A stretch of 64,000 nt of DNA from Lysobacteraceae bacterium. GTDB taxonomy: Bacteria > Pseudomonadota > Gammaproteobacteria > Xanthomonadales > Ahniellaceae. Of this stretch, positions 3,687 to 63,841 are shown piece by piece. How positions within the stretch are numbered: the first letter of the stretch is position 1; every line of letters begins with the position of its first letter. Position numbers and translations under genes: made by a program. The stretch covers positions 1-64,000 of the forward strand of contig JAJTHZ010000056.1 in the NCBI GenBank assembly GCA_021299185.1. Direction: 5' to 3'. The notes under the pieces are model-generated. The model had not been told where the DNA came from, searched no databases, and saw only the letters and a list, made by a program, of their open reading frames with translations.

Positions 3687-5003
3687 TCAGTCGCGCGCCA
3701 GCACCGCGTAGTAGAAACCGTCGAGCCCGTCGTCGCCGGGGAAGTGCTGGCGCCCGGCGCCGCTGGCGACGCCGAACCAGGCCGGCACCGCATCGCGGGG
3801 GCGGGCATCGGGCGTGCGGGCCAGGAAGGCAGCGATCCGGCGTGCGTTCTCATCGGCCAGCACCGAGCAGGTCGCATAGACTAGCCGCCCCCCGGGGGCC
3901 AGCAAAGGCCACAGCGCGTTCAGCAGGCGGTCCTGGGTCGCGCACAGCGCGGCGACATCGCCGGCGCGGCGCAGGCGGCGGATGTCGGGATGGCGCCGGA
4001 TCACGCCGCTGCCGCTGCAGGGTGCGTCGACCAGGATGCGATCGAAGGGCCGGCCATCCCACCACCCCGCGGGCGCGGTGGCGTCGGCCACGCGCACCAC
4101 GCCGGCCAGCCCGAGGCGGGCGAACCCGGCCTCGATGCGCGCCGCGCGCGGCGCCGACTCGTCGAGCGCCAGCAGGTCGATGGCGGGTTCGCGTTCCAGC
4201 AGGTGCGCCGCCTTGCCGCCGGGCGCGGCGCAGGCATCGAGCACGCGCAGTCCGGGCCGCAGGTCCATCAGGTCCGCGGCGAGCTGCGCGGCGCCGTCCT
4301 GCACCGACAGCGCGCCGGCATCGAAGCCGGGCAGTGCGTGCACGTCGACCGGCTCGGCCAGCACGATCGCATCGGGCAGGTGCGGATGCGCGGTGGCCGC
4401 GAGGCCGGCGGCGGCGAGCGCCGCCAGCGCCGCGTCGCGGCCGCCGCGGCGCCGGGAGGCGCGCAGCAGCATCGGCGCCGGCGCATTGTTGGCCGCCAGG
4501 ATGCGCGCGACGTCGGCCGGCCAGTCGCGCGCCAGCGCGTCGACCAGCCAGCGCGAATGCTGGTGGCGCTGCACGGGATCGTCCGGCAGCGCGGCGAGCA
4601 GCGCCTCGCGCTCGCGCAGGAAGCGGCGCAGCACCGCGTTGGCCAGCGCCGCCAGGCGCGGCCGGCCGAGCGCGCGCACCGCGGCGACCGTGCCCGAGAC
4701 CGCGGCATACGGTGGCGCGATGCCCGCGTCGAGCTGCGCCAGACCGGCCAGCAGGGCCGCTCGCACCAGGCGGTCGAGCTTCGCGCCGTCGCGCGCGAGC
4801 AGCGCGTCGAGCAGCGCCTCGTAGCGCCACGGCGCGCGCAGGGTCGCGAAGCAGATCGCACGCAGCAGGCCGCGGTCGCGCGGGTCCGAAAGCGCGGCAT
4901 CGGCGGCCGGCAGCGCGGCATCCAGCGCGTGGCCGCGCCAGACGTGCGCGAGCACCCGCGCGGCCTGTTCGCGCGCTGCCGCGCCGTCGTCGCCGGCGTT
5001 CAC
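3687..5003 (-). CDS. rsmB: 16S rRNA m5C967 methyltransferase RsmB
   Basis: A 438-residue protein with an N-terminal NusB-like RNA-binding domain (about 1-135, [12 protein letters not shown]...) and a C-terminal Rossmann methyltransferase domain. Visible motifs are [15 protein letters not shown] (SAM binding), [17 protein letters not shown] (first catalytic cysteine) and [13 protein letters not shown] (second cysteine). The enzyme methylates C967 of 16S rRNA using S-adenosylmethionine. The GTG start at 5003 overlaps the fmt TGA (sequence GTGA), the usual fmt-rsmB coupling. The much longer in-frame extension through fmt is shadow. Confidence 0.93.
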
Positions 5004-5941
5004 CGCGGCGGCCGCCGCAGCCCCGGCCGCGGGTTGAGGTAGTCGGCCGCCGACAGCACGCGCGCGCCCGGCCGCTGCACCGCGGTCAAGCGCAGCGCAC
5101 CGTCGCCGGTGGCGAGGTCGATGCCCTCGCGGCCGGCGCCGATCACGCTGCCGGGCGCGGCGGCTGCGGCGTCCACCGCCTGCGCGGCGTGCACGCGCAC
5201 GCGCTCGCCGTCGAGTTCCAGTTCCGCCACCGGCCACGGCAGGAAGGCGCGCACCTTGCGCGCCAGCGCCGCGGCGGGCTGCGCGAGGTCGAGCACCGCC
5301 TCGGCCTTGTCGATCTTGCGCGCATAGGTCACGCCCTCGGCCGACTGCGGCTGCGGCACCGGGCGGATGCCGGCGCGCAGCAGGGCGAGGCCGTCCTTGA
5401 CCACCTGCGCGCCCATCGTCGCCAGGCGGTCGTGCAGGGTCTGCGCGGTGTCGGCCTCGTCGATCGGGGTGTCCAGCGAGAGCAGCACCGGGCCGGTATC
5501 GAGGCCGGGCTCCATCTGCATCAGGCACACGCCGGTGCGTGCATCGCCGGCCTCGATCGCGCGCTGGATCGGTGCCGCACCGCGCCAGCGCGGCAGCAGC
5601 GAGGCGTGCACGTTCCAGCAACCGAAACGCGGGATGGCGAGCACGGCGCGGGGCAGGATCAGCCCGTAGGCGACCACCACCAGCAGGTCCGGCTGCAGGT
5701 CGCGCAGCGCCTGCTGCGCGGCGGTGTCCTTCAACGTCTCCGGCTGGAACACCGGCACCGCGCTGCGCAGCGCCAGCTGCTTGACCGGGCTCGCCGCCAG
5801 TTCGCGCCCACGCCCGGCCGGACGATCCGGCTGCGTCCACGCACCGACGACCTCGTGCGGCGAGTCGAGCAGCGCGGCGAGCACCGGTACGGCGAAGTCG
5901 GGCGTACCGGCGAAGGCGATTCGGAAGCGGTTGGGGGACAT
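5000..5941 (-). CDS. fmt: Methionyl-tRNA formyltransferase
   Basis: This 313-residue enzyme transfers the formyl group from 10-formyl-THF to Met-tRNAi. The N-terminal formyltransferase fold carries [12 protein letters not shown] at the start, the [16 protein letters not shown] catalytic segment (Asn and His), and LDTGPVL. The C-terminal OB-like domain contains the [10 protein letters not shown] segment. The ATG at 5941 ([10 protein letters not shown]) fits the family better than the ATG 15 bases upstream. It is followed by rsmB with overlapping stop and start. A heptamer-repeat element separates it from def, so def and fmt, often cotranscribed, are interrupted here by about 190 bases. Confidence 0.95.
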
Positions 5942-5975: not shown

Positions 5976-6126
5976 AGGGCCCAGGGCCCAGGGTATAGGG
6001 CCCAGTAGAAGCCGGCGCTGCGCTGCGTGCGGCGGACCCCGCCGATCTACAGCGCGACAGCGGGCCCTGAGGCAAACGCACGATCAGCAGGCTTTTCTGG
6101 GCCCTATACCCTGGGCCCTGGGCCCT
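5976..6126. repeat. Inverted pair of AGGGCCC-heptamer arrays (element 1)
   Basis: A perfect 30-base inverted repeat. The left arm (5976-6005) reads as 7-base words AGGGCCC, AGGGCCC, AGGGTAT, AGGGCCC, AG. The right arm (6097-6126) is its exact reverse complement. About 90 bases lie between the arms. The flank next to the right arm reads (on the minus strand) AGAAAAGCC, which recurs beside the copies near 47.1 and 47.3 kb. Because the arms are complementary, a transcript through the fmt-def gap would form a long hairpin. Confidence 0.9.
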
Positions 6127-6130
6127 GCCT

Positions 6131-6679
6131 TCAGATGGTATGGCGCCGCTGCTCATCGGCATCCGCGCCACCCGCCGCGGCGCGCTCCTTGGCCGCCTTG
6201 GCCAGCCGCTTGCGCACCTGTTCGCGCTTGAACGGCGAGAGGTAGTCGACGAACACCTTGCCGTCGAGATGGTCCATCTCGTGCTGGATGCACACCGCGA
6301 GCAGGCCGTCGGCCCACATCTCGAAGGGCTGGCCGTGGCGGTCGAGCGCGCGCACCCGGATGCGGTCGGCACGATCGACGTCGGCGTAGATGCCGGGCAC
6401 CGACAGGCAGCCCTCCTGGTAGGTCTGAGCGCCCTGTTTTTCCAGGATTTCGGGGTTGATGAACACCAGCGGGGCGTTCTTCTCCTCGCTGACGTCGATC
6501 ACCATGAAGCGTCGGTGCACGTCGACCTGGGTCGCCGCCAGGCCGATGCCGGGCGCGGCGTACATGGTCTCGAACATGTCGTCGATCAGCCGCGACAGGG
6601 CATCGTCCACGCGCTCGACGGGCTGTGCGCGGGTTCGCAGTCGCGGATCGGGGAATTCAAGGATGGTGAGCATGGCCAT
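6131..6679 (-). CDS. def: Peptide deformylase
   Basis: This 182-residue metalloenzyme removes the N-formyl group from nascent proteins. All three signature motifs are present: GIGLAATQ (about 44-51), EGCLSVP with metal ligand C91, and QHEMDHLDG with H133, E134 and H137. The C-terminal tail after about residue 165 is charged and Ala-rich. Two nearby ATGs (6679 and 6673) could both be starts; the first is used. It is the first gene of the def-(repeat)-fmt-rsmB run and lies head to head with the LysM gene at 6835, sharing the intergenic region 6680-6834. Confidence 0.95.
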
Positions 6680-12654: not shown

Positions 12655-12976
12655 GGCAGCGGCGCGTGCGCCGCGATGCTTTTCGATCTCGCGGCAGCCC
12701 GATCGCGCTGCACGCAGCGCTCCCACATCGGCTGCGCGCGGCCGGTGCCGTTCGGCAGGGCGCGGACTTTTTGGGAGCGGCGCGTGCGCCGCGATGCTCT
12801 TCGATCTTGCGGAGACCCCGTCGCGCTGCACGCAGCGCTCCTACATTGCCTGCGCGCGGCCGTGGACGCGCGCCATGGCGAGGGGTTTGTGGGAGCGGCG
12901 CGTGCGCCGCGATGCGTTTCGATCTCGCGGCAGCCCGATCGCGCTGCACGCAGCGCTCCTACAGCGGCTGCGCGCG
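12655..12976. repeat. REP array, three copies, exact 118-base period
   Basis: The word GCGGCGCGTGCGCCGCGATG starts at 12659, 12777 and 12895, an exact 118-base spacing. Each unit also holds the inverted REP part GCGCTGCACGCAGCGCTCC(T/C)AC, so each unit carries two opposed palindromes with the GGGAGC head. The array fills the gap between topA and the convergent chorismatase gene. Related single copies lie at about 47.17 and 47.34 kb. There is no gene in it. Confidence 0.9.
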
Positions 12977-12981
12977 GCGCC

Positions 12982-18064: not shown

Positions 18065-18176
18065 GGCAAATAGCGAATGGCGAATGGCGAATGGGAAAGC
18101 AGGAACCGCTGCCACGGCGACCATCGGCTCTCCTATTTGCCATTCGCCATTCGCCATTCGCCATTCGCTGATCCCA
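18065..18176. repeat. Inverted pair of GCGAATG-heptamer arrays (element 2)
   Basis: The left arm (18065-18093) is GCAAATA then GCGAATG three times in exact 7-base phase. The right arm (18134-18168) is TATTTGC followed by CATTCGC four times, that is, the same array inverted. The arms are separated by about 40 bases. The element lies between the ATPase gene and its permease gene and would form a long stem in their common transcript. It has the same architecture (heptamer words, inverted pair) as the AGGGCCC elements but a different word. Confidence 0.9.
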
Positions 18177-23843: not shown

Positions 23844-24124
23844 GAGCCTTCCTCCCAAGGTGTGTGACGTGCCGTGTGCGGCGCACGACGCATGCCGCAA
23901 CCCCACGGCACCGCGTGTCCCGATGCTGTGCTGCGGCCCGCGGCGCCGCCATTCGACTTTCGACTAGCGCGCGTGGTGCATCGCAGCACGGGCGCCTTCC
24001 GCTCACGCCCGCTTCACGCCTGCTGGCTAAATTGGCGCCGTCGGCGGGCCCCTCTGGCAGCGTGCAACGCGCTGCGATGTCGTCGACCCCAATCTCGACA
24101 CCCAAGGCTCAAAGGGGGCCCGTC
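23844..24124. promoter_or_regulatory. Divergent intergenic region between the DUF4212 and terC genes
   Basis: This 281-base gap must hold promoters for both directions. I see no clear -35/-10 pair, no CRP-type palindrome, and no yybP-ykoY riboswitch signature ahead of terC. Nothing else is recognisable. Confidence 0.35.
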
Positions 24125-31486: not shown

Positions 31487-31533
31487 GGCGTGCAGCGTGC
31501 AGCGCGGACGTCGGCCGCGACACGCGATGCAGC

Positions 31534-31867
31534 GGTCGCCCGCAAGCGGGCTCCTACACCATCGCACCCGCCCCCGTAGGAGCGCGCTTGCGCGCGATCG
31601 CACCCTCACACGCCGTCGCAAGACCCCGATGCCGCGGTCGCCCGCAAGCGGGCTCCTACAACATCGCATCCACCCATGTAGGAGCGCGCTTGCGCGCGAT
31701 CGCACCCTCACCCGCCGTCGCAAGGCCCCGATGCCGCGGTCGCCCGCAAGCGGGCTCCTACAACATCGCATCCACCATCGTAGGAGCGCGCTTGCGCGCG
31801 ATCGCACCCTCACCCGCCGTCGCAAGACCCCGATGCCGCGGTCGCCCGCAAGCGGGCTCCTACGGCA
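31534..31867. repeat. REP array, exact 102-base period
   Basis: Two opposed REP types alternate. GTAGGAGCGCGCTTGCGCGC begins at 31576, 31678 and 31780, and GGTCGCCCGCAAGCGGGCTC begins at 31534, 31636, 31738 and 31840, both at exactly 102-base spacing. The heads read GTAGGAGC (direct) or GCTCCTAC (inverted). The array fills the 424-base gap between the convergent crbR and crbS genes. Because 102 is divisible by three, it makes spurious open frames with a 34-residue repeat, which I do not treat as a gene. Confidence 0.92.
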
Positions 31868-31910
31868 TCGCAACCGCGCAAGGTCGCGGCGACGCGGGTT
31901 GGACCTTCAC

Positions 31911-37836: not shown

Positions 37837-38096
37837 AGGGCCCAGGGCCCAGCCGACGGTAGCGAGGCGGATCGCGGTGGGGTATCGGACAGGAACCGCC
37901 GCATCGCGCGTCGAAGCTTCAGGGTACAGGGCCCAGGGTATAGACCGACGGTAGGCCGGGCATCGCGGTGCGGTGGGCGACAGGGACCACCGCTTCGCGT
38001 CCGGTCCACGGGCCAGCAAATCGTCGCCCCCCGCGTCGCAACGGAGCGTCGGTCACCGCCTCACTTCCGGGCCCTGGGCCCTGGGCCCTGTACCCT
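37837..38096. repeat. AGGGCCC-heptamer element 3 (inverted, decayed)
   Basis: Three heptamer runs occur in the 310-base gap between actP and the convergent exonuclease gene. 37837-37852 is AGGGCCC twice plus AG. 37921-37943 is AGGGTAC, AGGGCCC, AGGGTAT, AG. The inverted run at 38069-38096 reads on the minus strand AGGGTAC then AGGGCCC three times. Between the runs a GACGGTAG...GCGGTG segment is loosely repeated (about 37855-37890 and 37945-37980). No gene is seen in the gap. Confidence 0.85.
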
Positions 38097-46986: not shown

Positions 46987-47459
46987 GGGGGCTCTCCGTC
47001 GCTGAAGGAACGGCTGGATGCATGTCATCGCAGGCCATCGAGGGGCGCAAGGGGCAGCCGATGAGCGGCGGGGGGCCGGGGGCCAGCGACCAAGGCCCAG
47101 GGCCCAGGGCTCAGGGGCCAGAAAAGCCGGCGACGGGTCGCACGGCGGTGAACCGAGCGCAGCGGGGCAGTGCATGGCATCGCGGCGCACGCGCCGCTCC
47201 CACGCCAGCGCGACGGGCCACGGATGCAGTCGTTGCACCCAGCACCCTGCAGCTAGGGCCCAGGGCCCAGGGCCCAGAAAAGCCGGCGACGGGTTGCGCG
47301 GCGGTGAGCCGACCGCAGCGGGGCAGTGCAAGGCATCGCGGCGCACGCGCCGCTCCCACACCTGCGCGCCGGGCTGCGGACGCCGTCGCTGCACCCTGCA
47401 CCCTGCACGCTGGGCCCTGAGCCCTCAGCCCTGAGCCCTCGCTCCAAAAGCCCAGAAAC
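46987..47459. repeat. Composite repeat region: AGGGCCC heptamers plus GCGGCGCGTGCGCCGC REPs
   Basis: Heptamer runs lie at 47092-47121 (AAGGCCC, AGGGCCC, AGGGCTC, AGGGGCC, AG), 47255-47277 (AGGGCCC three times, AG) and, inverted, at 47391-47439 (seven words from GCACCCT to GAGCCCT, all ending CCCT or GCT in exact phase). The first two are each followed by GAAAAGCCGGCGACGGGT (47121 and 47277, 156 bases apart) and then by a REP palindrome GCGGCGCACGCGCCGCTCCC (about 47168 and 47339), so a 156-base unit is duplicated. No gene is seen in this gap. Confidence 0.88.
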
Positions 47460-63017: not shown

Positions 63018-63279
63018 TGTGGGAGCGAGCAACGCTCGCGACTGCAGCCTCGGGGTGCCTCACAAGGGTCGAGAATGTGGGAGCGAGCAACGCTCGCGAC
63101 TGCGACCTCGGGGTGCGTCACAAGGATCGAGACTGTGGGAGCGAGCAACGCTCGCGACTGCGACCTCGGTGTGCCTCGCAAGGATCGAGACTGTGGGAGC
63201 GAGCAACGCTCGCGACTGCGACCTCGGGGTGCCTCACAAGGGTCGAGGTGGCGGTCGCGAGCGCTGCTCGCTCCCACAA
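63018..63279. repeat. REP array, four copies, exact 58-base period, plus inverted end copy
   Basis: TGTGGGAGCGAGCAACGCTC starts at 63018, 63076, 63134 and 63192, each exactly 58 bases apart; the hairpin is GCGAGC-AAC-GCTCGC. The spacer (CTCGGGGTGCCTCACAAGG with small variations) is repeated too. The array closes with one inverted copy (GCTGCTCGCTCCCACA, ending 63279). It lies between yidC and the RAYT gene, whose substrate it probably is. Confidence 0.93.
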
Positions 63280-63373
63280 TGTGCGACCAGGTACGCGCGA
63301 ATCAGCGGATTCCTACGCAACACCGGGCGCATATCCTCTGCCCCCAAGCGCCCGAGGCAACCACGATGTCCGC

Positions 63374-63841
63374 ATGGCTCGGGATCAGGACAGGGGATAT
63401 CGTGCGCTGCGGCGCGGTCGCCACTCGGAACCGGGACGAATCTATCTCGTCAGCACGGTCTGCCATGGGCGGCGCCGCTTCTTCGCAGACTGGGACGTCG
63501 CACGCACAGTGTGCGCCCAGCACGCAGCGCCCGGTGCGTTCCTCGATGCCGAAGCGCTCGCCTGGGTCCTCATGCCTGACCACTGGCACGGTCTCATCGC
63601 GCTGAACGACAGCGCATCCCTGTCGGAGGTGATGCAGCACTTCAAGGCGCGGTCGGCGAAGGCGGCGAACCGCACGCTGGGCCGCTCGGGCGCGATCTGG
63701 CAGGGCGGATTCCACGACCGCGCCCTGCGCCAGGACGATGACCTGCGCGCCGCGGCGCGTTACCTCATCGCGAACCCGATTCGTGCGGGTCTGGTCCGCC
63801 GCGCGGGCGACTATCCCTACTGGGACTGCATCTGGCTGTAG
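63374..63841 (+). CDS. REP-associated tyrosine transposase (RAYT)
   Basis: A 155-residue Y1/HUH-type enzyme of the TnpA_REP group. The HUH metal-binding motif is LMPDHWHGLI (H70, H72) and the presumed catalytic tyrosine is Y130 in AARYLIANPIRAGLV; the family stretch GAIWQGGFHDRALR is also present. RAYTs bind and cleave REP hairpins at the GTAG/GTGG head and are thought to have spread REPs. The ATG at 63374 starts the protein; the in-frame upstream reading through the REP array is not protein. REPs lie on both sides (63018-63279 and 63911-64000), a typical RAYT setting. No IS ends or second transposase gene accompany it. Confidence 0.9.
   Translation: MARDQDRGYRALRRGRHSEPGRIYLVSTVCHGRRRFFADWDVARTVCAQHAAPGAFLDAEALAWVLMPDHWHGLIALNDSASLSEVMQHFKARSAKAANRTLGRSGAIWQGGFHDRALRQDDDLRAAARYLIANPIRAGLVRRAGDYPYWDCIWL

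Follow-up and report, generated by a model that had tools for sequence, protein, structure and literature searches.

What is the perfect inverted repeat that separates def from fmt in this genome, and what might it do there? Its arms are exact inverted copies of one another, 30 nt long and made of AGGGNNN heptamers, just as the preliminary description of this 64-kb window (the whole stretch of DNA analysed, 64,000 nt) had stated. Both arms carry the words AGGGCCC-AGGGCCC-AGGGTAT-AGGGCCC-AG in the same order. The parts of this element, element 1, are listed here.

5976..6005, plus strand: left arm of element 1, (AGGGNNN)4 + AG, with the words CCC-CCC-TAT-CCC
6006..6096, no strand: loop or core of element 1; a sub-terminal box, AGAAGC, lies at 6007-6012 and the partner box, GCTTTT, at 6091-6096
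6097..6126, minus strand: right arm of element 1, with words and order identical to the left arm

Element 1 lies between def (6131-6679, minus strand) and fmt (5000-5941, minus strand). It fills a gap of 189 nt, and the same gap measures -19 to 33 nt in most of the ~27 relatives in which def stands beside fmt; in one relative, the gap holds GGGATTC heptamers. As RNA, the pair is predicted to fold into a stem of -117 kcal/mol (z = -9.6 against shuffles; z = -8.7 for DNA), and no U-tract follows the hairpin.

The same construction had been reported near 37.8-38.1 and 47.1-47.4 kb, and arrays do occur there, at 37837-38096 (element 2, between an SSF symporter gene and an RNase_T gene that converge) and at 47099-47439 (element 3, between two tandem ExbD genes).

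37837..37852, plus strand: outer short array of element 2, CCC-CCC
37921..37943, plus strand: left arm of element 2, TAC-CCC-TAT
38069..38096, minus strand: right arm of element 2, TAC-CCC-CCC-CCC
47099..47121, plus strand: first array of element 3, then AGAAAAGCC
47255..47277, plus strand: left arm of element 3, CCC x3, then AGAAAAGCC
47391..47439, minus strand: right-arm arrays of element 3, TGC-TGC, then CTC-CTG-CTC-CCC

A 156-bp direct duplication starts at the first array of element 3 (47099-47254 / 47255-47410, 88%). The motif AAAAGC (AGAAAAGCC), which had been noticed next to arrays, is found directly inside arms, at 47120 and 47276 on the plus strand and at 6090-6098 on the minus strand, and corresponds to a sub-terminal ARAGC box. 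Across the window, AGGGNNNAGGGNNNAG occurs 19 times, with 0.05 copies expected from dinucleotide shuffles. A search of the whole window with Rfam covariance models placed no family over the heptamer elements; its sole match was a terC RNA (RF03067) at 24036-24092, scoring 41.2 bits with a gathering score of 39.9.

The proposed genome-wide search for A-GGG-NNN runs (4.84 Mb in 270 contigs) returned 303 AGGG(NNN) x4 matches. Exact copies of the 16-mer AGGGCCCAGGGCCCAG number 192 (87+105; reversed control 0). The array counts combine ~0.94 Mb (935 kb) of genome that was read with whole-genome pattern counts; they come from draft MAGs with home-made gene calls, by an array detection that needs AGGG and at loci partly picked by pattern. 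The DNA read contains 153 arrays of at least two units. On 256 kb of blind contigs, there are 20 arrays of at least three units, with ~1 expected over all 935 kb under a first-order Markov model. Two contigs, C50 and C75, start within long heptamer arrays (L088 18-164 and L090 3-86). Arrays thus break the assembly, and there are probably more copies than were counted.

Of the tandem periods, period 7 alone is clearly over-represented, with 133 approximate runs against 12-34 for periods 4, 5, 8, 10, 11, and 13, and with 37 perfect runs against at most seven for any other period. Within this phase, a middle unit anchored by its two neighbour units only keeps A, G, G, and G at ~97-99%, and the next three positions vary. 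The earlier description of a strict 7-base phase in which the words vary was therefore correct: AGGG is conserved and NNN is free. CCC is the commonest word here, followed by TAT, CTC, and TAC; in a second genome, JAUIFV, the order is CCC, CTC, CAC, CTG, and CAT. The commonest arm has four units (47 of the 153 arrays here and 106 of 232 in JAUIFV). On blind contigs, four units make up 21 of 38 arrays in JAUIFV, and in this genome 7 of 26 arrays have four units and 8 of 26 have three. Array length is variable, with a few long arrays of up to 23 units. Neighbouring arrays are oriented '+-' in 45 cases, '++' in 8, '--' in 8, and '-+' in 1, which is inverted pairing and not the random, unpaired spread that had been named as the contrary outcome.

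These figures bear on one suggested origin, strand slippage, by which replication slippage and inversion at microsatellites would have generated the arrays neutrally. Tandem arrays that vary in length, a few of them long, are consistent with it, as is the general abundance of heptamer SSRs in bacteria reported in the literature. However, such a process is not expected to yield mixed words in phase, a conserved AGGG beside a free NNN, or a four-unit mode, nor facing pairs, an ARAGC box, and placement at gene ends, and we regard simple slippage as quite improbable.

In a typical element, about four 7-bp units make up the first arm, which is followed by an ARAGC box and a loop of ~15-240 nt; the complementary GCTYT box then leads into a second arm, of the same class, that faces the first. 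In ~85-95% of arms, the two bases immediately inside are AG. The ARAGC box occurs within 16 nt inside the arm in 22% of arms in this genome and up to 35% in G043, over a background of ~1-2% and a frequency of 0-5% deeper in the loop. The exact identity of the two arms holds at element 1 but is the exception genome-wide: across 45 elements of this genome, word-order coupling between arms does not exceed permutation, and it is weak in JAUIFV. Such coupling would be expected if the arms were copied from each other. The arms of one element do share a vocabulary, and they anneal more strongly than after permutation (4/200 and 0/200 permutations).

Is this a described kind of repeat? The preliminary description recognised no described family, yet one kind exists, the Xanthomonas heptameric G-rich repeats GGGAATC/GGGANTN, which usually have four units, number ~185 per genome, and are intergenic (Rehm et al. 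2015, PMC4692102). They form 70-75 facing pairs per genome, lie beside stop codons, and are under-represented between divergent genes (PMC4692102). The elements described here share with them 7-nt units in which a GGG tract is constant and other positions vary, the preference for four units, the facing pairs, the intergenic position near stop codons, and the scarcity between divergent genes. They depart from them in consensus, since the constant base stands before the G-tract (AGGG) and not after it (GGGA), in a default word, CCC, that makes the unit self-complementary, and in the families of the order that carry them. This genome and its relatives also hold GGCGAAT and ACGTTTT classes, which are unable to form a three-layer G-quadruplex. 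A catalogued match, named beforehand as the finding that would speak against a novel element, was thus obtained at the level of kind and not of sequence (AGGGNNN vs GGGANTN). The AGGGNNN elements belong to the Xanthomonas heptameric repeat kind and add a new variant of its sequence.

Other repeat systems resemble the elements less closely. The cyanobacterial heptanucleotide repeats (STRR of Calothrix; GGGGA(T/C)T of Nostoc) are likewise 7-nt tandem units, dispersed and mostly intergenic, but those of Nostoc have few paired or inverted copies (PMC4692102). The TAACTGA repeats of marine Beggiatoaceae are also intergenic heptamer arrays in many copies; they are reported as direct repeats with only one indirect case, and they have another word in another lineage (PMC4679880). 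REPs, BIMEs, and REPINs with their RAYT transposases are intergenic palindromic elements in facing pairs and many copies, but they carry a GTAG/GTGG head, whereas the arms here are tandem heptamers without such a head. In a literature search that covered few subscription journals, we found no description of the AGGGNNN variant, the G-poor classes, the shared ARAGC box, or the word swap at one site described below. Relative to the known kind, this study adds the conservation of AGGG beside a free NNN, the unrelated words GGCGAAT and ACGTTTT with the same build, and the ARAGC box in all classes.

The word is specific to lineages. AGGG(NNN) x4 is found in none of eight of the nine same-family genomes searched and five times in the ninth, and it occurs at least once in 73 of 299 genomes of the order. 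GGGANNN x4 is abundant in other genomes of the order (up to 618+572 in one genome) and occurs 0 times in this one. Heptameric G-tract arrays are spread over several families of the order. In two species of one genus, whose aligned DNA is ~80% identical, eight orthologous elements show 93% identity in AGGG, 70% in NNN, 59% in the loop, and 78% in the flank, values that are indicative because the alignment of tandem repeats favours register. At sites not selected by pattern, three elements are shared between the two species and three are missing in the partner; positional conservation between them is partly biased by the choice of loci.

The elements might be non-autonomous mobile elements, MITE- or REPIN-like, with the heptamer arms as their terminal inverted repeats. 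In the comparison of insertion sites with empty sites in relatives, which had been proposed, presence/absence does occur, but no clean empty site with a duplication was seen at the three 'absent' sites compared between JAUIFV and JAGRJL. The high copy number, the lineage-specific expansion, the near-empty def-fmt gap in many relatives, and the three sites occupied in one species only all agree with mobility, and some 42-nt loops in JAUIFV are alike in several copies. On the other hand, loops longer than 40 nt are mostly unique (27/39 in this genome), the loops that are shared here mostly consist of nested GTGGGAGC-type REPs, no target duplication was seen by eye, and arms vary freely in unit number and words. 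The mostly unique loops argue against a classical MITE, and a conserved internal sequence was rejected for most elements. The earlier suggestion of a mobile element is therefore disfavoured in its classical form, and mobility in general seems to us an unlikely explanation.

Transposase genes point the same way. This genome has four Y1/RAYT-type transposase matches, none associated with arrays, and their flanks, where read, hold GTGGGAGC/GTAGGAGC REPs. No AGGG arm pair stands beside a Y1_Tnp gene in the flanks fetched for these four matches and for six more in five relatives; a two-unit CTG array lies near the match in G049. Neither the arms nor their boundaries contain a GTAG/CGTC-type or GTGG REP head. 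The claim that the heptamer elements are separate from REPs is thus upheld, with Y1/RAYT genes adjoining other repeats and not heptamer arrays, and an origin from RAYT/REP was rejected. REPs do occur in the window. A small Y1/RAYT-type transposase gene is preceded by 58-bp tandem copies of the TGTGGGAGCGAGCAACGCTCGCGACTGC REP, at 63018-63307 and 63509-63841; at 31525-31872, GTAGGAGC REPs that alternate in orientation form a 102-bp tandem repeat (3.4 copies); and 12658-12978 is a REP-containing 118-bp tandem repeat of 2.7 copies.

Gene context was taken from a simple gene finder based on codon usage. By its calls, 30 pairs fall between tandem (co-directional) genes, 20 between convergent genes, 3 between divergent genes, and 1 within a gene. 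A heptamer pair is thus present in 19% of the gaps between convergent genes, where the elements are enriched, in 6% of those between tandem genes, and in 3% of those between divergent genes, where they are depleted. Their median distance from a stop codon is 37 bp in this genome and 12 bp in JAUIFV. The hairpins are not intrinsic terminators, because a U-tract follows none of 122 arms and two of 231; copies also occur within apparent operons. In Xanthomonas, RNA-seq found that transcripts start or stop more often at heptamer repeats (PMC4692102).

Beyond the observed architecture, copy number, gene-end placement, and lineage-specific word, we infer a function from this placement together with the published RNA-seq. 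The elements would be intergenic hairpin elements at the 3' ends of genes that probably work at the transcript level, where they block or stabilise the 3' end, a reading to which we assign a probability of about one half. Once transcribed, a pair would fold into a very stable stem just behind the coding sequence. This stem would form a 3'-end boundary that shields the end of the upstream mRNA and slows or insulates read-through, and by analogy with REPs, such heptamer hairpins may stabilise mRNA. One point against a barrier comes from element 1 itself: def and fmt are co-directional, and a strong barrier between them would be costly.

The sole published explanation we found is a different one. 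(GGGAATC)n forms a G-quadruplex in vitro, and this structure was proposed to account for the Xanthomonas repeats (PMC4692102), four units giving four G-tracts. Applied here, the four GGG tracts of each arm would fold into a DNA or RNA G-quadruplex that affects transcription, and the four-unit mode and the conservation of GGG beside free loops fit this idea, as does the in vitro result. In contrast, CCC makes the unit self-complementary, and a hairpin of -14.1 kcal/mol is predicted for it, with no G-quadruplex in the fold even when one is allowed. Predicted energies favour the hairpin for CCC arms and the G-quadruplex for TAT-only arms.

Other words with the same build bear directly on this question. 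A generic period-7 scan of this genome brought up a GGCGAAT class, of which one element lies in the window, in an ABC-ATPase / FtsX permease operon, between those two genes.

18065..18092, plus strand: left arm of the GGCGAAT class, GGCAAAT AGCGAAT GGCGAAT GGCGAAT, 5 bp past the stop codon, then GGGAAAGC
18135..18169, minus strand: right arm of the GGCGAAT class, five GGCGAAT-type units

This class varies within its phase (GGCAAAT, AGCGAAT, GGCGAAC), and of 200 genomes of the order, only this one and a single other member of its family have it. Ten of its 15 arrays of at least three units have four, and neighbouring pairs face each other in 6/6 cases. A further class, ACGTTTT (CGTTTTA), belongs to a sister lineage and came to light in an orthologous gap of two species, which holds an AGGGCAC array in L168 (4941-5003) and a facing ACGTTTT pair in L282 (15740-15852). 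Among 151 genomes, its arrays recur within the genus of these two species and, outside it, in a single genome of the same family, with three units in 9/24 and four units in 9/24, neighbouring pairs facing in 7/7 cases, and the ARAGC box inside 67% of arms. The Xanthomonas-type GGGAWTC arrays of other families have mostly four units, neighbours that face each other in 6/7 cases, and, like the AGGG elements, ARAGC inside their arms (38%, vs 0-4% elsewhere). ARAGC is thus found inside the arms of all word classes, at 22-67% against a background of ~1-2%, and one architecture is common to at least three unrelated word classes.

The GGCGAAT class, with its strong four-unit mode, has no GGG, and units of the CGTTTTA class contain a single G each and no G-tract. 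Since G-poor words also yield facing pairs of arms with about four units each, together with the ARAGC box, a G-quadruplex cannot explain the architecture and is not the whole story; it is not what fixes the build. We place the hairpin first and the G-quadruplex second, because CCC arms are predicted to form hairpins and CGTTTTA has a single G per unit, and we consider a quadruplex function doubtful. The role of the xanthomonad heptamer repeats and the upkeep of four units can now be tested by comparing word classes within one genome.

The hairpin reading leaves one feature of the arms to be accounted for, the fixed AGGG beside the free NNN, which suggests a further constraint in the AGGG class beyond pairing, either a recognising protein or the G-tracts. 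A stem acting at the RNA level would be expected to tolerate G-U and not C-A in a strand-specific way, and the difference was not significant (62 vs 45, p = 0.12). Because of this result, and because pairing alone does not explain the conservation of AGGG, a recognising protein is a serious rival. A putative protein would read A-GGG, or the lineage's own word, every 7 bp, and facing arms would let two such assemblies meet. The fixed AGGG with free NNN looks like a binding site, the word differs by lineage as it would with a co-evolving binder, and the ARAGC box is adjacent; however, two words in one genome would need two binders, and we give this possibility a fairly low probability.

A broader proposal is that all of these are one undescribed kind of intergenic element across Lysobacterales. 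Its build and not its sequence would define it, two arms of about four 7-nt units that face each other and are accompanied by an ARAGC box, and it would have a replaceable word (AGGGNNN, GGGANTN, GGCGAAT, or ACGTTTT). We offer this very tentatively, as an improbable reading. If it were true, with the word swapped even at one orthologous gap, a process would be needed that makes or maintains 7-nt units regardless of the word, and the candidates would be a hitherto unknown enzyme that advances 7 nt at a time, or a binder able to count the units.

Two further observations concern the GGGANNN arrays of other genomes. In G031, L244 15387-15608 consists of long mixed arrays (GGGACCA, GGGATTC, and GGGACTC) in one orientation only, and its congener G022 has 1190 exact four-unit GGGANNN matches.
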